Positions 3,396 to 46,666 of a stretch of 46,666 bases of DNA are shown here, piece after piece (the first letter of the stretch is position 1; each line of letters opens with the position of its first letter). A program made the position numbers and the translations under genes. The stretch spans positions 1 through 46,666 of the IMG/VR virus record IMGVR_UViG_3300028399_000003; one strand, written 5' to 3'. The stretch comes from a virus. Under the pieces are notes generated by a model. That model ran no database searches. It had not been told where the DNA came from and worked only from the letters and a program-made list of their open reading frames with translations.

Positions 3396-3761
3396 ATGGC
3401 TGGGTACAAGAGGAGGCCGCTGAATACTTATCCGACCACGTTTTTTACCTTGGCGAGGTTGGGGAAGGGTGTTACGCCTGAGGGGATTGAGGTGAGGTTT
3501 CCCCAGAAGAAGGAGGCGTATCAGTTGAGGACCATGTGGTATCACTTCGTGGCGGCGCTTGTAAGGGAGAAGCAAAGGGATTTGGTTTATGGGGCCAAGC
3601 AGATTTCGGTGTCGATTCATCAGGATGGGGGTGAGTGGGTGGTGAATTTCCATTCGTGCCGGGATTGGCATTTGGCACAGCCGTTGGAGCAGGCGCTGGC
3701 TGAGGCCGGGGTTGAGGTGAGAGAGGAGGATAGGGTGGAGCCGGATAGGGATTTGGGGTGA
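3396..3761 (+). CDS. Hypothetical protein, 121 residues
   Basis: Starts MAGYKRRPLNTYPTTFF after a GGGAGGG ribosome site 8 bases upstream. It is basic at the N terminus and acidic at the C terminus (EVREEDRVEPDRD), with a central segment EAYQLRTMWYHFVAALVRE that may be a DNA-contacting helix. I recognise no family. It is followed by a 200-base gap with its own promoter, so it belongs to the first short early transcript. Confidence 0.65.
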   Translation: MAGYKRRPLNTYPTTFFTLARLGKGVTPEGIEVRFPQKKEAYQLRTMWYHFVAALVREKQRDLVYGAKQISVSIHQDGGEWVVNFHSCRDWHLAQPLEQALAEAGVEVREEDRVEPDRDLG

Positions 3762-3875: not shown

Positions 3876-3904
3876 TTGACAAGCGCGGCGCGGCGGGCCA
3901 AAAT
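3876..3904 (+). promoter_or_regulatory. Rightward promoter for the MoxR/VWA cassette
   Basis: TTGACA (3876-3881), 17 bases, CAAAAT (3899-3904), within the 201-base gap before the gene at 3963. A perfect palindrome CAAGCGCTTG lies 25 bases upstream (3842-3851). The -35 context TTGACAAG is the same as at 11689. Confidence 0.5.
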
Positions 3905-3962: not shown

Positions 3963-4847
3963 ATGAGTGTTGAGGTGACGAAGGAGCGGATGGATTTCGG
4001 GGATTTCGTTGGCACGGTGTCGGTGATTTCCCTGAGGGAGATGGAGAAGAAGGGGCTGTATGTCTCGGCTGCCGAAGGGAAAGAGGGAATGATGAAGATT
4101 CTGAATGGGGCTGGGAAGGTTCTTCATTCGTTCCTGGAGGATGTGGTGGTTCCTGAGATGGTGAGCCAGCCCGGGCTGGGGGGCCACCTGGATGAGGTGG
4201 GGCTGGAGGACTGGAAGGGGCTGCTGAGTCTGGTGTCGCAGAGGGGGATGCGGCCTTTGGTGCTTGGAGCCAAGGCGAGGGAGGATGGTTCGATGGCCCG
4301 GTCGGTTTGGACGTTCTCGACGCCGGATTCGGATTCGTTCGCCACCGAGTCGATTTACATGGCGAAGGACTGGCGGAGGGAGGTTCAGTGGCTGGTGGCC
4401 GGGATGGAGATTTGGGCTGTGGGATCGTGGGTGTCGGGGACGGATTTGAGAACGGTGTTTGGGACTTCGTACCAGAGGAGAAGGTTGGAGGAGTTCTTTA
4501 CGGAGGCCCAGATTCAGGAGCTGGAGGAGATGTGGGAGAAGGAGGCCAATGACCAGAGCAAGTCGTTGGCTGTGGGAAAGAAGATTATGGAGATGAATGT
4601 GGAGGCGACCTACACGCTGAGGACTCCGCATGTGTTCCTGTCGGCGGGGACGAACAAGGGAGAGGAGATTCTGCTGATGGGGGAGATGGTGCCTCCGCTG
4701 AAGGATGGGGATGAGGAGAAGCCCGGGCTGGTGGTGACTGGCCTGGGGGTTGTGGCCCGGGATGGGGCTTTGACGGAGTTCGGGAAGGGGTTTTTGCCCC
4801 TTACCGACCAGGGGATGGTGGGCATCGGGCTCAGCGTCCTGTCGTAA
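3963..4847 (+). CDS. Hypothetical protein opening the MoxR/VWA cassette
   Basis: 294 residues from the ATG at 3963 (GGGAGG 9 bases upstream); upstream in-frame starts are ruled out by the promoter-containing gap. No signal peptide or membrane segment and no motif I can name. It has a helical middle (RRRLEEFFTEAQIQELEEMWEKEAND) and a beta-rich C-terminal part. It ends 34 bases before the MoxR gene and lies on the same transcript, so it is probably a partner or substrate of that ATPase. Alternative: an unrelated early protein. Strongly G-rich coding strand like its neighbours. Confidence 0.65.
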   Translation: MSVEVTKERMDFGDFVGTVSVISLREMEKKGLYVSAAEGKEGMMKILNGAGKVLHSFLEDVVVPEMVSQPGLGGHLDEVGLEDWKGLLSLVSQRGMRPLVLGAKAREDGSMARSVWTFSTPDSDSFATESIYMAKDWRREVQWLVAGMEIWAVGSWVSGTDLRTVFGTSYQRRRLEEFFTEAQIQELEEMWEKEANDQSKSLAVGKKIMEMNVEATYTLRTPHVFLSAGTNKGEEILLMGEMVPPLKDGDEEKPGLVVTGLGVVARDGALTEFGKGFLPLTDQGMVGIGLSVLS

Positions 4848-4881
4848 CTTGTTGTTTTTGATGGTGAAAGAGGAGAAGAAG

Positions 4882-5682
4882 ATGTCGGAGAGCGCGGCAG
4901 AACAGAAGGGTTCTGTGGTGTATGAGGCGGTGGCTGCCACGGGCGAGAAGAGCGTGATTCCGGTGCCGGACCCGGGTGCGCCTCCCCCGGACCTGGGGTG
5001 CTGGGATTTGGTGGCGGCGGTGCTGAGGTCTGCCCGGCGGGCGTTGCTGTATGGGCCGCCGGCCACGGGCAAGACGCATATCGCCAGCTACATCGGGGGA
5101 GACAAGCCGACCTACTCGGTGACGCTGACGGAGGACATGCCGGAGGCGGAGCTGCGGGGCCACTACATTCCCAAGGGGAATGAGTTTGTGTGGCAGGACG
5201 GGCCGGCGATTCGGGCCTGGCGGGAGGGCGCCAATCTGGTGCTCAATGAGATTAACCGGGCCTCGCCCGAGGTGCTGAGCTTCCTGTTTGTGCTGCTGGA
5301 TGACCCCAAGACGGCGATTCTGACCCTGCCTACTGGGGAGACGGTGCGGCCCCATTCCGAGTTTCGGGTGTTCGGGACCATGAATGGGGAGCCGGGGATG
5401 CTGCCGGAGCCGTTGCAGGACAGGTTCCCGGTGCAGATTCATGTGGACAAGACGAATCCGGCAGTGCTGGAGCTGTTTCCCAAGGAGATGCGGAAGCTGG
5501 TGAAGCGGACCATGGACCTGAGTGGGGAGCGGCGGATTACCGTGCGACAGTGGCTGGCGTTCTGGGAGCTGCTGTGCCGGGGTGCTGAGGTGGATGCCGC
5601 CGGCCCGTCGGTGTTCCGGGACAAGTGGGAAGGGCTGCGGGAGTCGATTCTGTTGGCTCTGGCCCCGGCTGGGAACAAGTGA
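4882..5682 (+). CDS. MoxR/dynein-related AAA+ ATPase
   Basis: 266 residues. Walker A GPPATGKT at 58-65, Walker B region LVLNEINRA at 119-127, sensor 1 within FRVFGTMN, and QDRFPVQI carrying the expected arginine finger. The layout is that of MoxR/CobS-like AAA_5 ATPases, which remodel proteins and nearly always work with a VWA-domain partner; that partner is encoded at 8592. The Walker B Asp before the catalytic Glu is Asn here (N122-E123), so ATP handling may be altered. The ATG at 4882 has AGGAG 7 bases upstream; the longer frame from 4849 has no better site. Confidence 0.85.
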   Translation: MSESAAEQKGSVVYEAVAATGEKSVIPVPDPGAPPPDLGCWDLVAAVLRSARRALLYGPPATGKTHIASYIGGDKPTYSVTLTEDMPEAELRGHYIPKGNEFVWQDGPAIRAWREGANLVLNEINRASPEVLSFLFVLLDDPKTAILTLPTGETVRPHSEFRVFGTMNGEPGMLPEPLQDRFPVQIHVDKTNPAVLELFPKEMRKLVKRTMDLSGERRITVRQWLAFWELLCRGAEVDAAGPSVFRDKWEGLRESILLALAPAGNK

Positions 5683-5712
5683 TGGATGAGGGAGGGGAGT
5701 TCTTTCCCCTCC

Positions 5713-5727
5713 CTCCCCCCTCAGGAG
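5713..5727. repeat. 15-bp dispersed repeat, copy 2
   Basis: Reverse orientation. Its AGGAG end plus the next bases (AGGAGGTG) form the ribosome site of the gene starting at 5736. Confidence 0.85.
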
Positions 5728-5735
5728 GTGCAAAG

Positions 5736-6374
5736 ATGATTGACATTCATGATGGGCCGGCAGCCCTGAAGGAGATGGATGAAGAGGCCAAGGAGTTCTT
5801 TACGTCTCTTGTGCTGGGCATAGACACGAAGAAGGATACTGTGCTTAGCACGTTGGGGAAGCTGGGCAGGGGGCTTGAGACCGGGGCTGAGAGGTTTGGA
5901 TGGGGGCGTGAGGGAGTGACGCCGAATCCTGTGGTTGCGTTCATGATGGGGCTGGTTTCCTCGTTGTGCTGGGATTTGTCTCAGGTGCTCAAGGAGGTAG
6001 GGCAGGGAGTCGAGGTGACGCTGGCTGCTGCGCGTCTGGCGGGGATGAAGGAGGTTGGTGAAGAGAGAAGGAAGGGGGCGGTTGAAGCTATCAAGGCTGG
6101 TGTGGAGGAGCTGGATAAGGGGGATGCGATAGACATTATCGTGAACGCGGTTTATGTGCATAGGGATGTGGAGTTGTTGCTTGCTACTGCTGAGAAGAAG
6201 CAGGAGCTAGTGGGGCCGGGGATTGAGTATTACAGGATGGTTGCCCCGATGTTGGGGATTTATGAGTCGCTGCGGGCGTTGGAGGACAAGCTGACGATAC
6301 TTGTGGGAGATCCCTTGGTGAAGGAGTACAAGGGGGATATTTTGGATGCGCTGGATGTTTTGGGAGGAGTTTGA
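5736..6374 (+). CDS. Helical protein, tandem paralog A
   Basis: 212 residues from the ATG at 5736, whose ribosome site comes from a copy of the 15-bp repeat. Almost entirely helical and soluble. It aligns by eye with the next gene: RFGWG, then a VVAFMMGLVSSL helix, and near the end EYYRMVAPMLGIYESLR followed by EYKGDILDALDVLGG. The two are therefore a duplicated pair of a family I do not recognise. Being enclosed between the MoxR ATPase and the VWA protein suggests adaptor or substrate roles. Confidence 0.7.
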   Translation: MIDIHDGPAALKEMDEEAKEFFTSLVLGIDTKKDTVLSTLGKLGRGLETGAERFGWGREGVTPNPVVAFMMGLVSSLCWDLSQVLKEVGQGVEVTLAAARLAGMKEVGEERRKGAVEAIKAGVEELDKGDAIDIIVNAVYVHRDVELLLATAEKKQELVGPGIEYYRMVAPMLGIYESLRALEDKLTILVGDPLVKEYKGDILDALDVLGGV

Positions 6375-6377
6375 GAG

Positions 6378-7058
6378 ATGGTGGCTGAGAGTGGGAAGTG
6401 GTTGAAGGAGGAGCATCCTGGGTTGGACCCCGCCCAGATTAAGAAGTTGAGCCCTGAGGTTACTCAGTTTTTGATGGAGGAGACTGAGGGGTTGAAGGTT
6501 GAGAAGAAGTCCAAGGTGGAGCTTGCGGAGGGGATTCGCAAGATGATTTTGGAGGGGCGGCACAGGTTTGGATGGGGGCACAAGAGTGAGGCGCCTGTGG
6601 CTGTGGCAGAGTTTTTTATGGGTGCGGTGATGGCTTTGGCCGCGGATTTGGAGGAGGAGCTGACCAAGGCCGGGGCGGTTAGCGAGGCCATGAGCGCAGC
6701 TGTTGTGCTGCTGCATGGGGCGAAGGATGAGAGGGATGTGAGATTGGGGGTCTCTACCTGTAGGGAGACCATTGAGAGTCTGGAGAAGAGGGGGGTTTTC
6801 AGGGCTTTGAAGGATTTTATGCTGTGTCATGTGCATGTTGAGGCGATTATGGCCAATGCGTGTGATGCGGATGGGGCGAGGGTGAGGCCTGGGGTGTCGT
6901 TGAATTATTACCGGAGGGTTGTCCCGATTTTGGGGGTGAACAATTCGGTGAGGGGTTTGGCGGAGGATTTGGAGAATTTGTTGGGGTCTTCCAACAAGAA
7001 GGTGAGGAGGTATCGGAAGGAGATTGATGGGATTCTGGACCTGCTGGACTGGGTTTAG
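6378..7058 (+). CDS. Helical protein, tandem paralog B
   Basis: 226 residues, starting 4 bases after paralog A stops. Shared features: RFGWG, a VAEFFMGAVMALAADL helix, and NYYRRVVPILGVNNSVRGL followed by RRYRKEIDGILDLLDWV. The N-terminal 50 residues and the middle (a Cys/His-containing MLCHVHVEAIMANACDAD) differ from paralog A, so the copies have specialised. No catalytic motif is evident. Confidence 0.7.
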   Translation: MVAESGKWLKEEHPGLDPAQIKKLSPEVTQFLMEETEGLKVEKKSKVELAEGIRKMILEGRHRFGWGHKSEAPVAVAEFFMGAVMALAADLEEELTKAGAVSEAMSAAVVLLHGAKDERDVRLGVSTCRETIESLEKRGVFRALKDFMLCHVHVEAIMANACDADGARVRPGVSLNYYRRVVPILGVNNSVRGLAEDLENLLGSSNKKVRRYRKEIDGILDLLDWV

Positions 7059-7122
7059 CGGATCTGGGGTGCCCCAAGCCGGGCGGGGCTTGAGTGCCTG
7101 GCGTATCGTGGAGGAGAAGAAG

Positions 7123-7353
7123 ATGGTTGAGTTGGGTGTGATTCTGAAGGGTCTGACCATGGCGGCGGCGTTCATCGGTGCCCCGTACTACTTCGGGACT
7201 CAGCACGGGGTGGAGCCCCTGCCGTGTGCGCAGGAGCCGATTCGGGTGGTTCGGTGGACCGGCCCCGATGCCCCGAGCTACCAGTTCGAGGTGGCGGGGT
7301 GCGAGTTTTCCGCCAATGCGGACAAGTACACCGTGGTTGAGGTGAAGCGGTAA
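7123..7353 (+). CDS. Small membrane-anchored or secreted protein
   Basis: 76 residues from the ATG at 7123 (GGAGGAGAAGAAG just upstream, the same leader as the MoxR gene). A hydrophobic stretch (about 5-22, VILKGLTMAAAFIGAPYYF) follows the start, then a beta-rich part with two Cys (PLPCAQEPIRVVRW and FEVAGCEFSAN) that could form a disulfide outside the membrane. Unknown function; it is the first of two membrane proteins in the cassette. Confidence 0.6.
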   Translation: MVELGVILKGLTMAAAFIGAPYYFGTQHGVEPLPCAQEPIRVVRWTGPDAPSYQFEVAGCEFSANADKYTVVEVKR

Positions 7354-7450
7354 GAACCCCGCCCCAGGGAGCGGAGACCCTGATGGTTCCCCGGCTGGCC
7401 CGGTCGTTCTCCGCAAGGGCACTTTTTCACTAGAGGCGGAGGTATAAGTC
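7354..7450 (+). terminator. Structured gap, possible weak terminator
   Basis: GCGGAGA (7370-7376) pairs with TCTCCGC (7409-7415), and TTTTT follows after a further 8 bases. The long loop and the gap before the T run make this a weak candidate for attenuation between the first and second halves of the cassette. Confidence 0.25.
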
Positions 7451-8590
7451 ATGTTCATTCGGATATACAACAAAATTGTTGAGTGGTTCTGTGAGAGGGG
7501 TGCGAAGTTGGGGATTGTTGGGAGTCCCATTGATTCTCGGTACATCCTGAGGAATTTCCCCCGTCCAGTCCGTCGTATCGGGGTAGAAGCTGCTGCCTTG
7601 AGGGTGGCGGAGAATGGGACTTTCTGGTGGGCCTTGGGCCGGCCCTGGGTAGCCCTGATGATTTGGGCCTATGTGGCTGCATGTCTGGCGGAATGGGTGT
7701 TTCAGGCGAATGGGCTTATGCCTGAATATCGGTGGGCCTATTTCATCGTTATGGTTTTGATTGGGGTGGCTTTCGGGGTGGTTTATGCGGTATTCACGTT
7801 TCCGAGGGCCAAGAAAGGGGCTGTGTGGGTTGTGGATTTGGAGTATTGGCTGGGCCTGCTGGTGAATATTTCGGCGAAGGCCCGCAAGGAAGGATGGGAG
7901 AATGTGCCGGATGATTGGATTCGGAAGGCTGGGCAGATTGGGGTGAAGTTGGTTAAGGGATGGAAGCCGTCTTCGTTCCGGTGGTCGTCCCGGTGGGGTT
8001 ACGAGGTGGCGATGGCTGTCCTCAATGATATGGTCAAGGATGGGCTGGTGAAGTGCAAGGAGGAGGGTAAGATTCGGGAGGGGATTCTGATTGTGTTGTG
8101 GTATATGTGGGCGTTCTCCCGGGATGGCGTAAAGGCCAAGGATAACAATATTTTGGAGTTGGTTTTTCTCATGGAGAATTTCCCGGAGGAGGCAAAGCGG
8201 GTATTTAGTAAGACCGGGGAGAATGTGTTGTTGGCTCTTGGCGGGCGTGATGTAACTATTAATCCGGGAAAGACTCGGATTGAGGATTATCCCGGGGGCG
8301 GGGTGATTAACATGCTGATTCGGCTGTGTCAGGAAAGGAATCCAGAGGTTGATGTGAGCAAGTGCGGGAATCTGGCCTGGGGATATTCGTATATTTCCGG
8401 GACGCTGGTGCTCAAGGAGTTGGAGAGGAAGGGACTGGCTAAGGTGAGCCTGAGGGGACAGGGGTTTGAGTATTTCAAGCAACAGGTTACTGAGGAGGTG
8501 GAGCCTATTGTGAATCCGCTGACTTCGGTGTTTGGCCCCGGAGGGGTGCTTGCTTGGGCGTTGAGAGCTGGTAATAACGAGGGGAAGTGA
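7451..8590 (+). CDS. Two-pass membrane protein of the MoxR/VWA cassette
   Basis: 379 residues. A short amphipathic N terminus, two adjacent membrane segments (about 58-85 and 97-119), then a 260-residue soluble helical domain containing ILIVLWYMWAFSRDG and a C-terminal winged-helix-like stretch. ATG at 7451 with GGAGG 8 bases upstream. It ends 1 base before the VWA gene, so the two are translationally coupled. It could tether the ATPase/VWA complex to the inner membrane. I recognise no family. Confidence 0.7.
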   Translation: MFIRIYNKIVEWFCERGAKLGIVGSPIDSRYILRNFPRPVRRIGVEAAALRVAENGTFWWALGRPWVALMIWAYVAACLAEWVFQANGLMPEYRWAYFIVMVLIGVAFGVVYAVFTFPRAKKGAVWVVDLEYWLGLLVNISAKARKEGWENVPDDWIRKAGQIGVKLVKGWKPSSFRWSSRWGYEVAMAVLNDMVKDGLVKCKEEGKIREGILIVLWYMWAFSRDGVKAKDNNILELVFLMENFPEEAKRVFSKTGENVLLALGGRDVTINPGKTRIEDYPGGGVINMLIRLCQERNPEVDVSKCGNLAWGYSYISGTLVLKELERKGLAKVSLRGQGFEYFKQQVTEEVEPIVNPLTSVFGPGGVLAWALRAGNNEGK

Positions 8591-8591
8591 A

Positions 8592-10196
8592 ATGTATCCT
8601 GAGCTGATTGATGAGAAGGAGCGGGAGTGGGAGCTGAAGCGTGGGACGGCCATGCTGGATACCCGGACTATGGCAATTGTTTCCCATGAGAGGGGACGGG
8701 GATGGGATTTTTACCATGAGATGGCGCATCTGAAGTGGAGCCCCATGGAGGGGCCGGTGCTCCCGGAGGAGTTCAAGGGGGACAAGGTGGCGCAGTTGTT
8801 CCTCATGGGCGTGGAGGATATGCGGGTGAACAGCCTGCTGGCGCGGGTGGCCCGAGTCAGGCCGACGCCCACCCCTGCCGAGCTTGACTTGGGGATTAAG
8901 GGGTTGCAGGTGGCTCAGAAGGCCACCAAGACTTATTACAGGGAAGTGAAGCGTGGTGATATGCCGTTGACTGGGGCGGTGCTGGTGGCGATGGGGCTGT
9001 CGGGCTGGGATGCGCCGGTGTCCCGGGAGGTTCCGCATTATCTGCCGCCGGAGTTGGGGAGGTTGGTCAAGGAAGCGGCTCAGCGGCTGTGGGCTGACGG
9101 TGCACCGTTGGATTACCAGCGGACTCTTGAGGTGACTCGGTGGCTGTACGAGGAATTTTGGGATTCCGTGGTCCCTGAGGGCGAGAAGATTAAGAGGAAG
9201 GGGGGAAAGTGCCCTGAGGGTGTGGAGACCCCTATGGAGCTTGACAGGGGGAGTGAGAAGAAGCTGGAGGTTAAGATTGTCAAGGGGCTTGGGAAGAAGG
9301 CGGCTGACCGGCTGAAGATGTTGGAGTCCGAGGGAGCCTTTGCGGAGGCTGCCGATGAGGAATACTCGGGGGGTCTGGGAAAGGTTCCTCCCGGGTTGAA
9401 GCAGGCGGCTGAGGAGGGAAATGACGGGCCGCTTTGGAATCCGCAGACCGGCGTGAATCTGGTGGTTGAGGCCACGAGTCTTCGGGAGCTGCTGAAGAGG
9501 ATGCGGGAGTACGGGCATGATTGGGGGGATGCGGAAGTGCCCTTGCTCAAGTTCCCGATGCAGGATAATCCGAGGCTGGCGGAGGTGCGGGACAGGAGGT
9601 ACACGGAGTCCGGGGTGCATCCGTTGGGGATGCACCGAATTGGGATTGACCGTAAGGTTTTCCTGACCAAGAAGAAGAGGCCGCAGGCCAAGGATGTCGG
9701 GAGTATTGCCATTGACGTATCGGGCTCCATGCACTGGTCCATTGATATGTTCAAGAGGGTGATGGAGATGATGCCCCGCGCTAATGTGATTGCCTACAAC
9801 AGCGCCGGTGGTAAGAGCAGGTTTATTCTGTTGGCGAAGGATGGAAAGATCCTCACGGAGGAGAGTATCACGAAGGCTTGGGGGAAGTTTGGTGGGGGAA
9901 ATGGATGCGACATTCAGGCCCTTTGGTGGCTGGCGAGTAACCCTGAGCCCCGGATTTGGGTCTCCGATGGCGGTATTTGTTCCGATACAGATAACGGGGC
10001 GGAGGTGGATACGCCGATGGGGGCGGGAGCTGCAATGCAGCTTTGCATTGCGAATAACATCGTTCAGGTGAAGGATGGGAGTGAGCTGTTGACGTTGTTG
10101 CGGAATGGGACTTTGCCCAACTTCGATGTCGAGATTTATTCTGGGGGGAATTGGTTGGTTCGCAGGGAGGCGTGGGCGATTAGGTGGGACAAGTAA
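8592..10196 (+). CDS. HExxH metallopeptidase-like plus VWA domain protein
   Basis: 534 residues. The N-terminal domain has HEMAH at 42-46 followed some 30 residues later by GVEDMRVN, the zincin-type arrangement seen in CobT/DUF2201-like proteins. A charged linker (about 200-300) leads to a VWA domain with the MIDAS motif DVSGSM (about 374-379), a GGGNGCD segment and WVSDGG (about 455-460). MIDAS proteins bind partners through Mg2+; MoxR/VWA pairs act as chaperone-like or metal-insertion machines. Whether the HExxH site is a working protease is unknown. Together with the ATPase at 4882 this is the core of the cassette. Confidence 0.85.
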   Translation: MYPELIDEKEREWELKRGTAMLDTRTMAIVSHERGRGWDFYHEMAHLKWSPMEGPVLPEEFKGDKVAQLFLMGVEDMRVNSLLARVARVRPTPTPAELDLGIKGLQVAQKATKTYYREVKRGDMPLTGAVLVAMGLSGWDAPVSREVPHYLPPELGRLVKEAAQRLWADGAPLDYQRTLEVTRWLYEEFWDSVVPEGEKIKRKGGKCPEGVETPMELDRGSEKKLEVKIVKGLGKKAADRLKMLESEGAFAEAADEEYSGGLGKVPPGLKQAAEEGNDGPLWNPQTGVNLVVEATSLRELLKRMREYGHDWGDAEVPLLKFPMQDNPRLAEVRDRRYTESGVHPLGMHRIGIDRKVFLTKKKRPQAKDVGSIAIDVSGSMHWSIDMFKRVMEMMPRANVIAYNSAGGKSRFILLAKDGKILTEESITKAWGKFGGGNGCDIQALWWLASNPEPRIWVSDGGICSDTDNGAEVDTPMGAGAAMQLCIANNIVQVKDGSELLTLLRNGTLPNFDVEIYSGGNWLVRREAWAIRWDK

Positions 10197-10717: not shown

Positions 10718-10959
10718 AACCGATACGGAAAAAGAGCCTTCCCCGGGAGGTCTGGGAGTTACTGGAGGAGTTGGAGCGGGAGGAAGGAATTAGGGCGGTT
10801 GGGATTAAGCCTCGGACTCAAGGCGGGCATATCAAGGTGGTTCTGGAGGATGAAGCGGGGAAGCGCAGGATTCTAGTGGTTCAAAGTAGCAAGATGCGGC
10901 CAAGGGCTGCTGCCAACGTGAAGGCTGTGGCCAAGAGATTGTTTCGGGAGGAGGGGTGA
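10714..10959 (+). CDS. HicA-like/dsRBD-fold small protein
   Basis: 81 residues. A helix, then GGHIKVVLEDEAGKRRILVV, then SSKMRPRAAANVKAVAKRLF. This resembles small phage proteins with the order G-x-H-strand, G-R-R-strand, S-x-x-x-x-R-A-x-x-N-helix that share the double-stranded-RNA-binding fold of HicA. HicA toxins carry a catalytic His in the GxH segment, kept here, but no HicB antitoxin is adjacent, so a toxin role is not supported. Confidence 0.5.
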   Translation: MKPIRKKSLPREVWELLEELEREEGIRAVGIKPRTQGGHIKVVLEDEAGKRRILVVQSSKMRPRAAANVKAVAKRLFREEG

Positions 10960-44446: not shown

Positions 44447-46596
44447 TACGGCGCCCTCCTCCAACTGTCAGGTAAATCCGGCACCTCAGCCTCCCTCTCA
44501 ATCAGCCTGAGGTACTCCCCCTCAACGGCCGGCCCGACCCCTCCCGAATGGTCCAGGGCCATCGCCACCGCATCCAACAAATCGTCATGCCTCACATCAG
44601 GATAATCCGCAAACTGCTCCACAAACTCCACATGACTCGCATGAATATACAAATCCCCATTCGCCGCCCTGCCACTCAACGCCTGCAAAATCCTGTCCCT
44701 CTTCTTCCTCTTATCAGTCACCTCAATCACAGGCACAAACCTCCCCACCTCCCGCATCTTGACTTTCAAATACCGCGCCAGAGTCCTCTGGTACGCCACA
44801 CTCTCAACCACCACCTTCCTTGGTCTATACTTCTCCGCCATCCTGAAAAACTCAGCAGCCAGCTCCTCAACCTCCTGGTCCCTGTTCATCACATACTCAA
44901 GCAAGTACGCCTTCCCCTGATGAAACCCTACAGCCACAATCACCTGGTAATCCCCTAACCTCCCTTTCTTCCTGGCCTCCTCGCTCACAGGCGGCGCCGG
45001 GTCAATCGCCATCACCACACTCATCCTATCCGGCAAAATCTCCCAATGCCGCAACCACTCCGCCCGAAAATAACTCGTCTCCTTGGAAACAACCCGGCAC
45101 TCCATCTCCCGCATCCAAAGACTCAACTGGTTCCTCCGAATATGAGCCTCCTTATCCGCCAGCAACTGCTCAGTCGGAAACCGCTCCGGCCACCTCGACT
45201 CCCCACTCTCATCAAAACACCCAAACCTCAAACTAAACCACTGCGGGTCCCTCATGCAGCACTCCACCAAATCATCCCTATCCAATGGCGTCTGCAACAA
45301 CACCATCTTCGCATGGGGATTCTCCGTCCTCGGCACCAAGCTCTTCTCCAACGCCCCAAAAAACAACTGCTGCAACTTCTGCCGCTGCTCAGGCGTCCCT
45401 ACATTCTCCTCCGAGCACGCATCATCCACCACAATGAGGTCCGGCCTGTGGTCATCAATATTAATCCCTCGAATCTGCCCCGTAATCCCCAGCGCCAGCA
45501 CCCTTGCCGTATGCCCAGTCCTCTCACTCACAATCTCAATATCCTCCAGCGCCCACCTCACTCCAGGCCTCAACCCAAACACCTCGGCAAACAACCGATT
45601 GAACATCACCGCCTTCTTCAACCACTCCAAACTCTTCAACGCATGCGCCTGCGAATCAGACACAAACAAAATCGTATGACTCAACCCATACGCAATCCTC
45701 AACGCCGTAAACACCCTAAGCAGTGTCGTCTTCGCCCCACCCCGAAACACCTCAACCGCCACATACCGATTCTGCGGCGCCACCAACGCCTCCATCACCT
45801 CCCGATGAAACCCCGGGCTCCTCTGCCCCATCGCCTTGGGAAAGAACACCCGCCCAAAAAACAAGGGGTCCACCGCCCCCAGCTTCACAACCTCCTCAAT
45901 CGGCAACTCCAGCCCCAAGGAACCCTCCGCCTGGACATCCCCACCGCCACCTATATAATAGGTATCCGAGGGCCCGCTGGTCCCGCTGCCACCTGTAACC
46001 TGGGGGGGACCTATGGGTGGGGCAGGCCGCGGGCCCTCTTCCGTTGAGCCCTGGGGGGGACCAAGGGGGCAGGCCGGCTGGTCCGAGGCCCTGGGGGGGC
46101 CAAAGGAAGGGGCCATCGGGTCCTCCGGCCCGGCATGCGCAAGTTCGGGCTCGCTGGCCCCCTGGCCAGCCTGCGCCGATTCGCCATCCTGAGATTCCTG
46201 GCCAGCCTGCGCCATCTCACTCGAGCCAGCCTGCTCAGGCTGCTTGTCTTCTCCCCCCTCAGGAGATTCCTCCAGGCCGCCAGGCTCCGCCTGGCCCGCG
46301 CAATCTGGCTTCTCGGCGGGGTCGCTTCCGCCGGCCTCGAGGGGGTCGGGCGCATCCAGCTGGTCGAGGGGGATGGCCGCGGCCAGGGCGGCCTCCAGCC
46401 GGGCTTCGAGTTCCTGGTGGTCGTCCTTCGGGGTTTTGGGCTTTCCAGGCTTCGTGGGGGGCCGGCGGCTGGACAGGCCGCCAGTGGAGGTCCGGGCCTC
46501 GCGTTTTTTGGCGGCGGAGGTCTTGGGGGCCCGCTGGCCGGGGAACTTGGGCTGGCGGGCCTTCTTCTTGCCGGGTTGTTTCTTCTGGGTTGCCAT
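44446..46596 (-). CDS. terL: Terminase large subunit with long N-terminal extension
   Basis: 716 residues. Residues 1-228 are a basic, then Pro/Gly/Glu/Gln-rich low-complexity extension with repeated AQAGQ and GPPQ words. The core starts near ELPIEEVVKL: Walker A-like VFRGGAKTTL, Walker B LIVVDDACSEE, LLQTPLDRDD, and nuclease residues AIDPAPP, VVESVAYQ and HDDLLDAVAMAL. It drives DNA into the capsid and cuts it. No earlier conserved core is missing, so the extension is added sequence; it lies where plus-strand base bias flips. The gene spans the contig junction copy. The ATG is at 46596. Confidence 0.85.
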   Translation of the reverse strand: MATQKKQPGKKKARQPKFPGQRAPKTSAAKKREARTSTGGLSSRRPPTKPGKPKTPKDDHQELEARLEAALAAAIPLDQLDAPDPLEAGGSDPAEKPDCAGQAEPGGLEESPEGGEDKQPEQAGSSEMAQAGQESQDGESAQAGQGASEPELAHAGPEDPMAPSFGPPRASDQPACPLGPPQGSTEEGPRPAPPIGPPQVTGGSGTSGPSDTYYIGGGGDVQAEGSLGLELPIEEVVKLGAVDPLFFGRVFFPKAMGQRSPGFHREVMEALVAPQNRYVAVEVFRGGAKTTLLRVFTALRIAYGLSHTILFVSDSQAHALKSLEWLKKAVMFNRLFAEVFGLRPGVRWALEDIEIVSERTGHTARVLALGITGQIRGINIDDHRPDLIVVDDACSEENVGTPEQRQKLQQLFFGALEKSLVPRTENPHAKMVLLQTPLDRDDLVECCMRDPQWFSLRFGCFDESGESRWPERFPTEQLLADKEAHIRRNQLSLWMREMECRVVSKETSYFRAEWLRHWEILPDRMSVVMAIDPAPPVSEEARKKGRLGDYQVIVAVGFHQGKAYLLEYVMNRDQEVEELAAEFFRMAEKYRPRKVVVESVAYQRTLARYLKVKMREVGRFVPVIEVTDKRKKRDRILQALSGRAANGDLYIHASHVEFVEQFADYPDVRHDDLLDAVAMALDHSGGVGPAVEGEYLRLIEREAEVPDLPDSWRRAP
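45999..46102. repeat. CCTGGGGGGG words in the terminase extension
   Basis: CCTGGGGGGG occurs at about 45999, 46050 and 46090, each reading as GPPQ or GPPR on the minus strand. A fourth copy lies in the scaffold gene near 41850 (MPPQ). Like the 15-bp repeat, the word occurs in low-complexity coding sequence. Confidence 0.6.
46251..46265. repeat. 15-bp dispersed repeat, copy 9
   Basis: Inside the low-complexity N-terminal extension of the large terminase, read as SPEGGE. Confidence 0.85.
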
Positions 46597-46666
46597 GGTG
46601 GATTAGTTTAGCTCAGGCCGCCGGGCCTTGCCCGGCCTGCGCCGGTTCGGGTTCGATTCCGATTTC
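46540..46666. repeat. Terminal direct repeat, right copy
   Basis: Second copy of bases 1-127. Removing it leaves a 46,539-bp circle in which the leftward operon runs without a break from the nuclease gene at 74-577 into the large terminase gene. Confidence 0.95.

Follow-up and report, generated by a model that had tools for sequence, protein, structure and literature searches.

As judged from sequence, a MoxR-type AAA+ ATPase and a VWA protein with an HExxH motif form a widespread phage gene pair. In the window (the whole stretch of 46,666 nucleotides analysed here, IMG/VR record IMGVR_UViG_3300028399_000003), four further genes, helA, helB, tm78 and mem379, are inserted between the two partners. 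This insertion has been seen once and is the sole unusual feature of the cassette; its genes are lineage-specific orphans without relatives in the collections searched. The core of the cassette is probably a two-component machine for remodelling, working in the manner of NorQ/NorD, CbbQ/CbbO and the CobS/CobT-like pairs of phages. We regard the core as a machine of a known kind because the pair is widespread and because L220, the closest sister phage found (a 26-kb contig), has the pair and its flanks without the interposed genes.

The cassette consists of seven consecutive, co-directional genes at positions 3963-10196, with intergenic gaps of 34, 53, 3, 64, 97 and 1 bp. The tightly spaced gene run of the preliminary description is thus confirmed, and the spacing makes co-expression likely. 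The features are as follows:

3963..4847, plus strand: g2, open reading frame for a 294-aa orphan, first gene of the operon
4882..5682, plus strand: MoxR-type AAA+ ATPase, 266 aa (Pfam AAA_5, 3e-19)
5688..5717, plus strand: perfect 12-bp hairpin in the gap between the MoxR gene and helA, RNA fold of -29.7 kcal/mol
5736..6374, plus strand: helA, about 212 aa, all-helical by prediction, orphan
6378..7058, plus strand: helB, 226 aa, paralog of helA
7123..7353, plus strand: tm78, small orphan, 76 aa, whose N-terminal hydrophobic segment is borderline
7451..8590, plus strand: mem379, 379-aa orphan with predicted transmembrane segments at 66-84 and 98-116 and a soluble C-terminal part
8592..10196, plus strand: HExxH-VWA partner, 534 aa, identified by phrog_33218, family alignment and structure model; begins 1 bp past mem379
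8715..8729, plus strand: HEMAH, motif of the zinc-binding type in the VWA partner, residues 42-46, from the family alignment
8814..8825, plus strand: EDMR motif of the VWA partner, with E75 as candidate third zinc ligand and R78
9714..9728, plus strand: MIDAS motif DVSGS of the VWA partner, D375-S379; a further MIDAS aspartate, D459, is encoded at 9966-9968

It had been proposed that a single promoter drives the run. A candidate (TTGACA-17-CAAAAT) is indeed present at 3876-3904, but it is one of five matches to the consensus, with 3.6 expected by chance. The most likely start of helA is at 5736, with an AGGAGG ribosome site upstream. The hairpin that precedes helA (z -2.1 against shuffles, without a T run) could tune the expression of the downstream genes. 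The window is probably a closed, complete genome because it carries an exact direct terminal repeat of 127 bp (1-127 = 46540-46666) and because the gene order of L220 (portal, terminase, w_168) runs on across its end-to-end join; the earlier estimate that the cassette takes up about 13% of the genome therefore stands. A search of the window against Rfam gave no match. Between gene blocks, at 2500-2786, there are three copies of a 24-bp repeat of the TGTGGGCCGTCAGGGCCAC type and a perfect 17-bp hairpin with a 2-nt loop.

The ATPase has all the hallmarks of the MoxR type: an AAA_5 domain, Walker A (K64), the Walker B glutamate (E123), sensor 1 (N168) and the arginine finger (R181). The Walker A lysine, the Walker B glutamate and the sensor-1 asparagine are present in each of 181 aligned ATPases of the family, and the arginine finger in 179. 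The acidic Walker B residue preceding the catalytic glutamate is an asparagine in 172 of the 181 proteins; in the window, N122 replaces the aspartate. Midasin is the best solved relative of the ATPase profile, while NorQ and CbbQ are the best among proteins of similar length.

For the partner protein, Pfam detected neither the VWA domain nor the HExxH domain in the window, and both calls come from family alignments and a structure model. It has the features of the phage HExxH-VWA proteins of the phrog_33218 type: an N-terminal HExxH, a downstream Glu and Arg, and a C-terminal VWA (match to phrog_33218 at 1.5e-5, as compared to 6e-11 to 1e-38 for its relatives). The MIDAS signature DxSxS and the later aspartate corresponding to D459 are present in all 116 VWA family members; there is no clear threonine at the third MIDAS position of the window protein. 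HExxH is intact in 96 of the 116 members, all of which have a glutamate at position 75. The preliminary description had regarded the arrangement as an unrecognised one. This does not hold for the presence of an HExxH domain on the VWA protein: such a domain is the norm in the family and has been published (PMC7824862); the four orphans between the partners are indeed unusual. The HExxH motif is absent from the other 20 members, a few of which are divergent and possibly misaligned. MIDAS is always retained where HExxH has been lost, and the alignment suggests that these proteins may be peptidase-dead versions of the machine. Since the motif is broken in these 20 members, the family as a whole cannot share proteolysis as its function.

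The structure model of the VWA protein was built from 60 sequences and has a mean pLDDT of 68.8, with values around 90 in much of the VWA part. Among PDB structures, it best matches the VWA domain of NorQ-bound NorD, with Z 9.6 and an rmsd of 6.4 for 189 residues, and many ordinary VWA domains score within 1-2 Z units of this match. Of the motifs relevant to a zincin fold, HExxH is located on a helix at 38-49 of the model and the glutamate on a helix at 65-87. The structure matches span only the C-terminal VWA part; no solved peptidase matched the N-terminal region, and no zinc peptidase is among the matches listed, which cover almost solely the VWA part. The DUF2201_N domain (PF13203) of the DUF2201 VWA-metallopeptidases gave no match under conditions in which control genomes were matched.

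Scans of IMG/VR with the single VWA or the single ATPase sequence gave no relatives, and a tblastn search of 50,697 phage records with the window VWA stayed below detection. The family was uncovered when a two-sequence ATPase alignment was searched against IMG/VR, which contains at least 243 relatives of the ATPase and at least 249 of the VWA protein. Among 171 ATPase-VWA pairs in viral contigs and MAGs, a set in which some contigs are represented by several overlapping pieces and some members are closely related (109 pairs differ in a stretch of the ATPase), the two genes abut or overlap in 160 and are 51-500 bp apart in 11, and in none are they further apart. The window, in which 2.9 kb within one gene run separate the partners, is the only outlier. 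Its VWA partner has a MIDAS and is linked to the ATPase, as is characteristic of MoxR-VWA pairs. Across phages, the ATPase and VWA trees are similar, and the window sits on a long branch close to L077, L088 and L117, with weak support for its placement in the VWA tree. The earlier identification of a MoxR/VWA remodelling pair is supported. An HExxH-VWA reading frame was also found on a Deltaproteobacteria MAG contig (L143:4447-7455) beside a cellular-looking gene; this version may belong to a chromosome or a prophage.

Several known systems resemble this pair. In jumbo phages of group 2.2, adjoining genes for an AAA+ MoxR protein and a vWA protein with an N-terminal metallopeptidase domain were published in 2021 (PMC7824862). 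As compared by description only, the window differs in its compact 266-aa ATPase, in its phage, which is of another lineage and 46.5 kb in size, and in the four orphans between the partners. The bacterial NorQ/NorD and CbbQ/CbbO systems supply, in one complex, both the nearest solved ATPase among those of similar size and the nearest solved VWA. The target of NorQ/NorD is nitric oxide reductase, whereas no such target gene was seen in the window; the zinc-peptidase domain is not mentioned in the accounts of NorQD (PMC13036017, PMC9976466). The ternary MoxR-vWA conflict systems with VMAP, iSTAND, FtsH or beta-propeller proteins (PMC7159879) likewise combine a MoxR-vWA couple with further linked proteins, but the window system is phage-borne and its interposed proteins match no known family above noise in Pfam, PADLOC or NCBIfam. 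Finally, cobST genes occur in many tailed viruses, and cobT is often annotated as a peptidase (PMC8651126). The window shares with the CobS/CobT-like pair found in tailed phages and in archaeal viruses an ATPase similar to phrog_249 (1e-20; annotated as porphyrin biosynthesis) and, with the named phage CobT-like proteins, the order HExxH, E(D)xR and MIDAS (alignment A1). These similarities, together with the proposal that CobST has such a role in tailed viruses (PMC8651126), would fit cobaltochelatase subunits that boost cobalamin synthesis by the host. We consider this highly improbable: CobN (PF02514) is absent from the record, though the host could supply it, CobT_C (PF11775) matched nothing in the record even at E values up to 10 while control genomes were matched, and a zinc motif is unexpected for a chelatase subunit.

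The interposed genes set the window apart. L220 is 64% identical to the window in the terminase, 62% in the portal, 69% in Sak4, 49% in the nuclease, 55% in the ATPase and 25% in the VWA protein, and it has homologues of both genes flanking the cassette (g1 at 3396 and g10197). In L220, the MoxR gene ends at 10747 and the VWA gene begins at 10769, with a gap of 21 bp; g2, helA, helB, tm78 and mem379 are not detectable in the contig. Since L220 keeps the pair and the flanks without them, we regard the four interposed genes as lineage-specific orphans. The preliminary description held that free variation of these genes among related phages would speak against it, and this is largely what was found: no homologues of helA, helB, tm78 or mem379 are present in the syntenic L220 or in any of the 171 pairs. 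When the orphans were compared, profile against profile, with 100 neighbour families, the best probability was 7.5%, and helA and helB have no relatives in the viral and genome contigs searched. In tblastn searches, the VWA protein, helA, g2 and mem379 had no match in phages, nor did mem379 in plasmids; for g2, there was no match above noise in Pfam and none in the phage collection, the PDB or 271 loci. The proposed duplication is real: pairwise BLASTP aligns helA with helB over 211 aa at 30% identity (E=2e-22), which makes them true paralogs, and the genome has no third copy. The structure model of helA, with a mean pLDDT of 62.5 and matches typical of helical bundles, was set aside. Of the two membrane proteins described earlier, mem379 has two predicted hydrophobic segments, but tm78 has only one, which is borderline.

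It is a serious possibility, if somewhat short of an even chance, that the four genes are unrelated cargo, for example for host takeover or counter-defence, without a functional tie to the machine. They are missing from L220 and all 171 pairs and are orphans in every search, and the insertions of 51-500 bp at the ATPase-VWA junction of 11 other pairs indicate that this site tolerates extra DNA. The close packing of the genes is at odds with simple cargo: the gap between mem379 and the VWA gene is 1 bp and that between helA and helB 3 bp, all genes are co-directional, and the MoxR and VWA genes still belong to one gene run. It is tempting to speculate that in this lineage the MoxR-VWA pair is a membrane-anchored multi-subunit remodeller with helA/helB as a heteromeric adaptor and mem379/tm78 as the anchor, whose target would be at the host membrane, and that L220 achieves the same purpose with an SPFH protein and a different two-pass protein; this idea is tentative and rather doubtful. 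In L220, an SPFH/Band_7 protein of the stomatin/prohibitin type (8817-9782, Pfam 2.7e-21) is encoded 5' of the MoxR gene and a protein with two transmembrane segments after the pair, which together with mem379 in the window is a weak hint at a membrane site for the action of the machine. This link may be due to chance, since the membrane proteins of L220 are not detectably related to mem379 (including its two-pass protein, which shows no homology) and since among the 109 distinct pairs only that of L220 is followed by a two-pass open reading frame within 2.5 kb. Another locus, L160, encodes an SPFH/Band_7-like protein about 7 kb upstream of its MoxR-VWA pair.

For the probable two-component machine itself, a mechanism can be transferred by analogy from NorQD, in which cryo-EM has located a finger of the VWA protein in the pore of the ring (PMC13036017) and for which target activation is lost upon mutation of the MIDAS (PMC9976466). 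The phage ATPase would form a hexameric ring onto which the C-terminal VWA domain could dock, and the MIDAS might grip a target that ATP hydrolysis would then pull or twist and thereby remodel. The N-terminal zinc-peptidase-like domain, with its motif intact in most members, may cut or hold this target, and helA, helB, tm78 and mem379 may act as adaptors or as a membrane anchor. MoxR-VWA pairs are widespread in phages. The collected set provides a testable family in which the ATPase and MIDAS are constant and a minority of members have lost the zinc motif, and it includes two sister phages whose pair is the same but whose neighbours differ. The comparison of these sister phages could reveal the target of the pair and whether the membrane partners are real.

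The genomic context suggests when the machine might act. In the window, the pair lies 5' of the genes for the nuclease/exonuclease, Sak4, polymerase and primase, on the strand opposite to the terminase, portal and capsid genes. Similarly, 35 of 48 loci of the commonest lineage have an SbcD-like exonuclease behind the pair, 34 of the 48 have Rad52-like annealing proteins there, and the terminase, where seen, is on the opposite strand. Since the pair is thus part of an early recombination and replication block rather than of the virion genes, a target in early infection is likelier, and the data favour an early role over virion maturation. A chaperone-protease acting on capsid or tail proteins, which it would remodel and cleave, has been proposed for the jumbo-phage MoxR-vWA pair with the N-terminal metallopeptidase (PMC7824862), and a chaperone role in tail development has been ascribed to the p618/p892 pair of ATV (Scheele 2011, as cited in a later paper). 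We consider such a virion role unlikely here, both from the position and strand of the pair and from the apparent ability of related virions to assemble without the VWA protein, which was found in none of 49 records of the phage family, many of them fragments. The early position and the accessory distribution would also suit a counter-defence device that dismantles a host defence complex. We judge this quite unlikely: the only PADLOC match is a generic P-loop match to IetA, no defence target is indicated, and the layout of the pair is constant across diverse phages. None of the roles initially suggested, inactivation of a host complex, membrane takeover or counter-defence, has received direct support.

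By its terminase, portal, capsid, DNA polymerase and primase genes, the window is close to Microcystis phage Mel-JY34 and Vibrio phage VS-ABTNL-3, and its PD-(D/E)XK nuclease is common to 57 viral contigs. The search of the 49 family records was made with a VWA profile on whole records and without a positive control; a later VWA profile detected the window's own VWA protein, one of its training sequences, at 1e-153. In the same records, AAA_5 was found in one convincing protein of another type. As these records contained no VWA and only this different AAA_5 protein, the cassette is probably accessory in its phage family. In one relative from this family (L069:503-2727, minus strand), a different AAA_5 protein is followed by a 295-aa protein in which, by eye, a VWA-like segment is possible.
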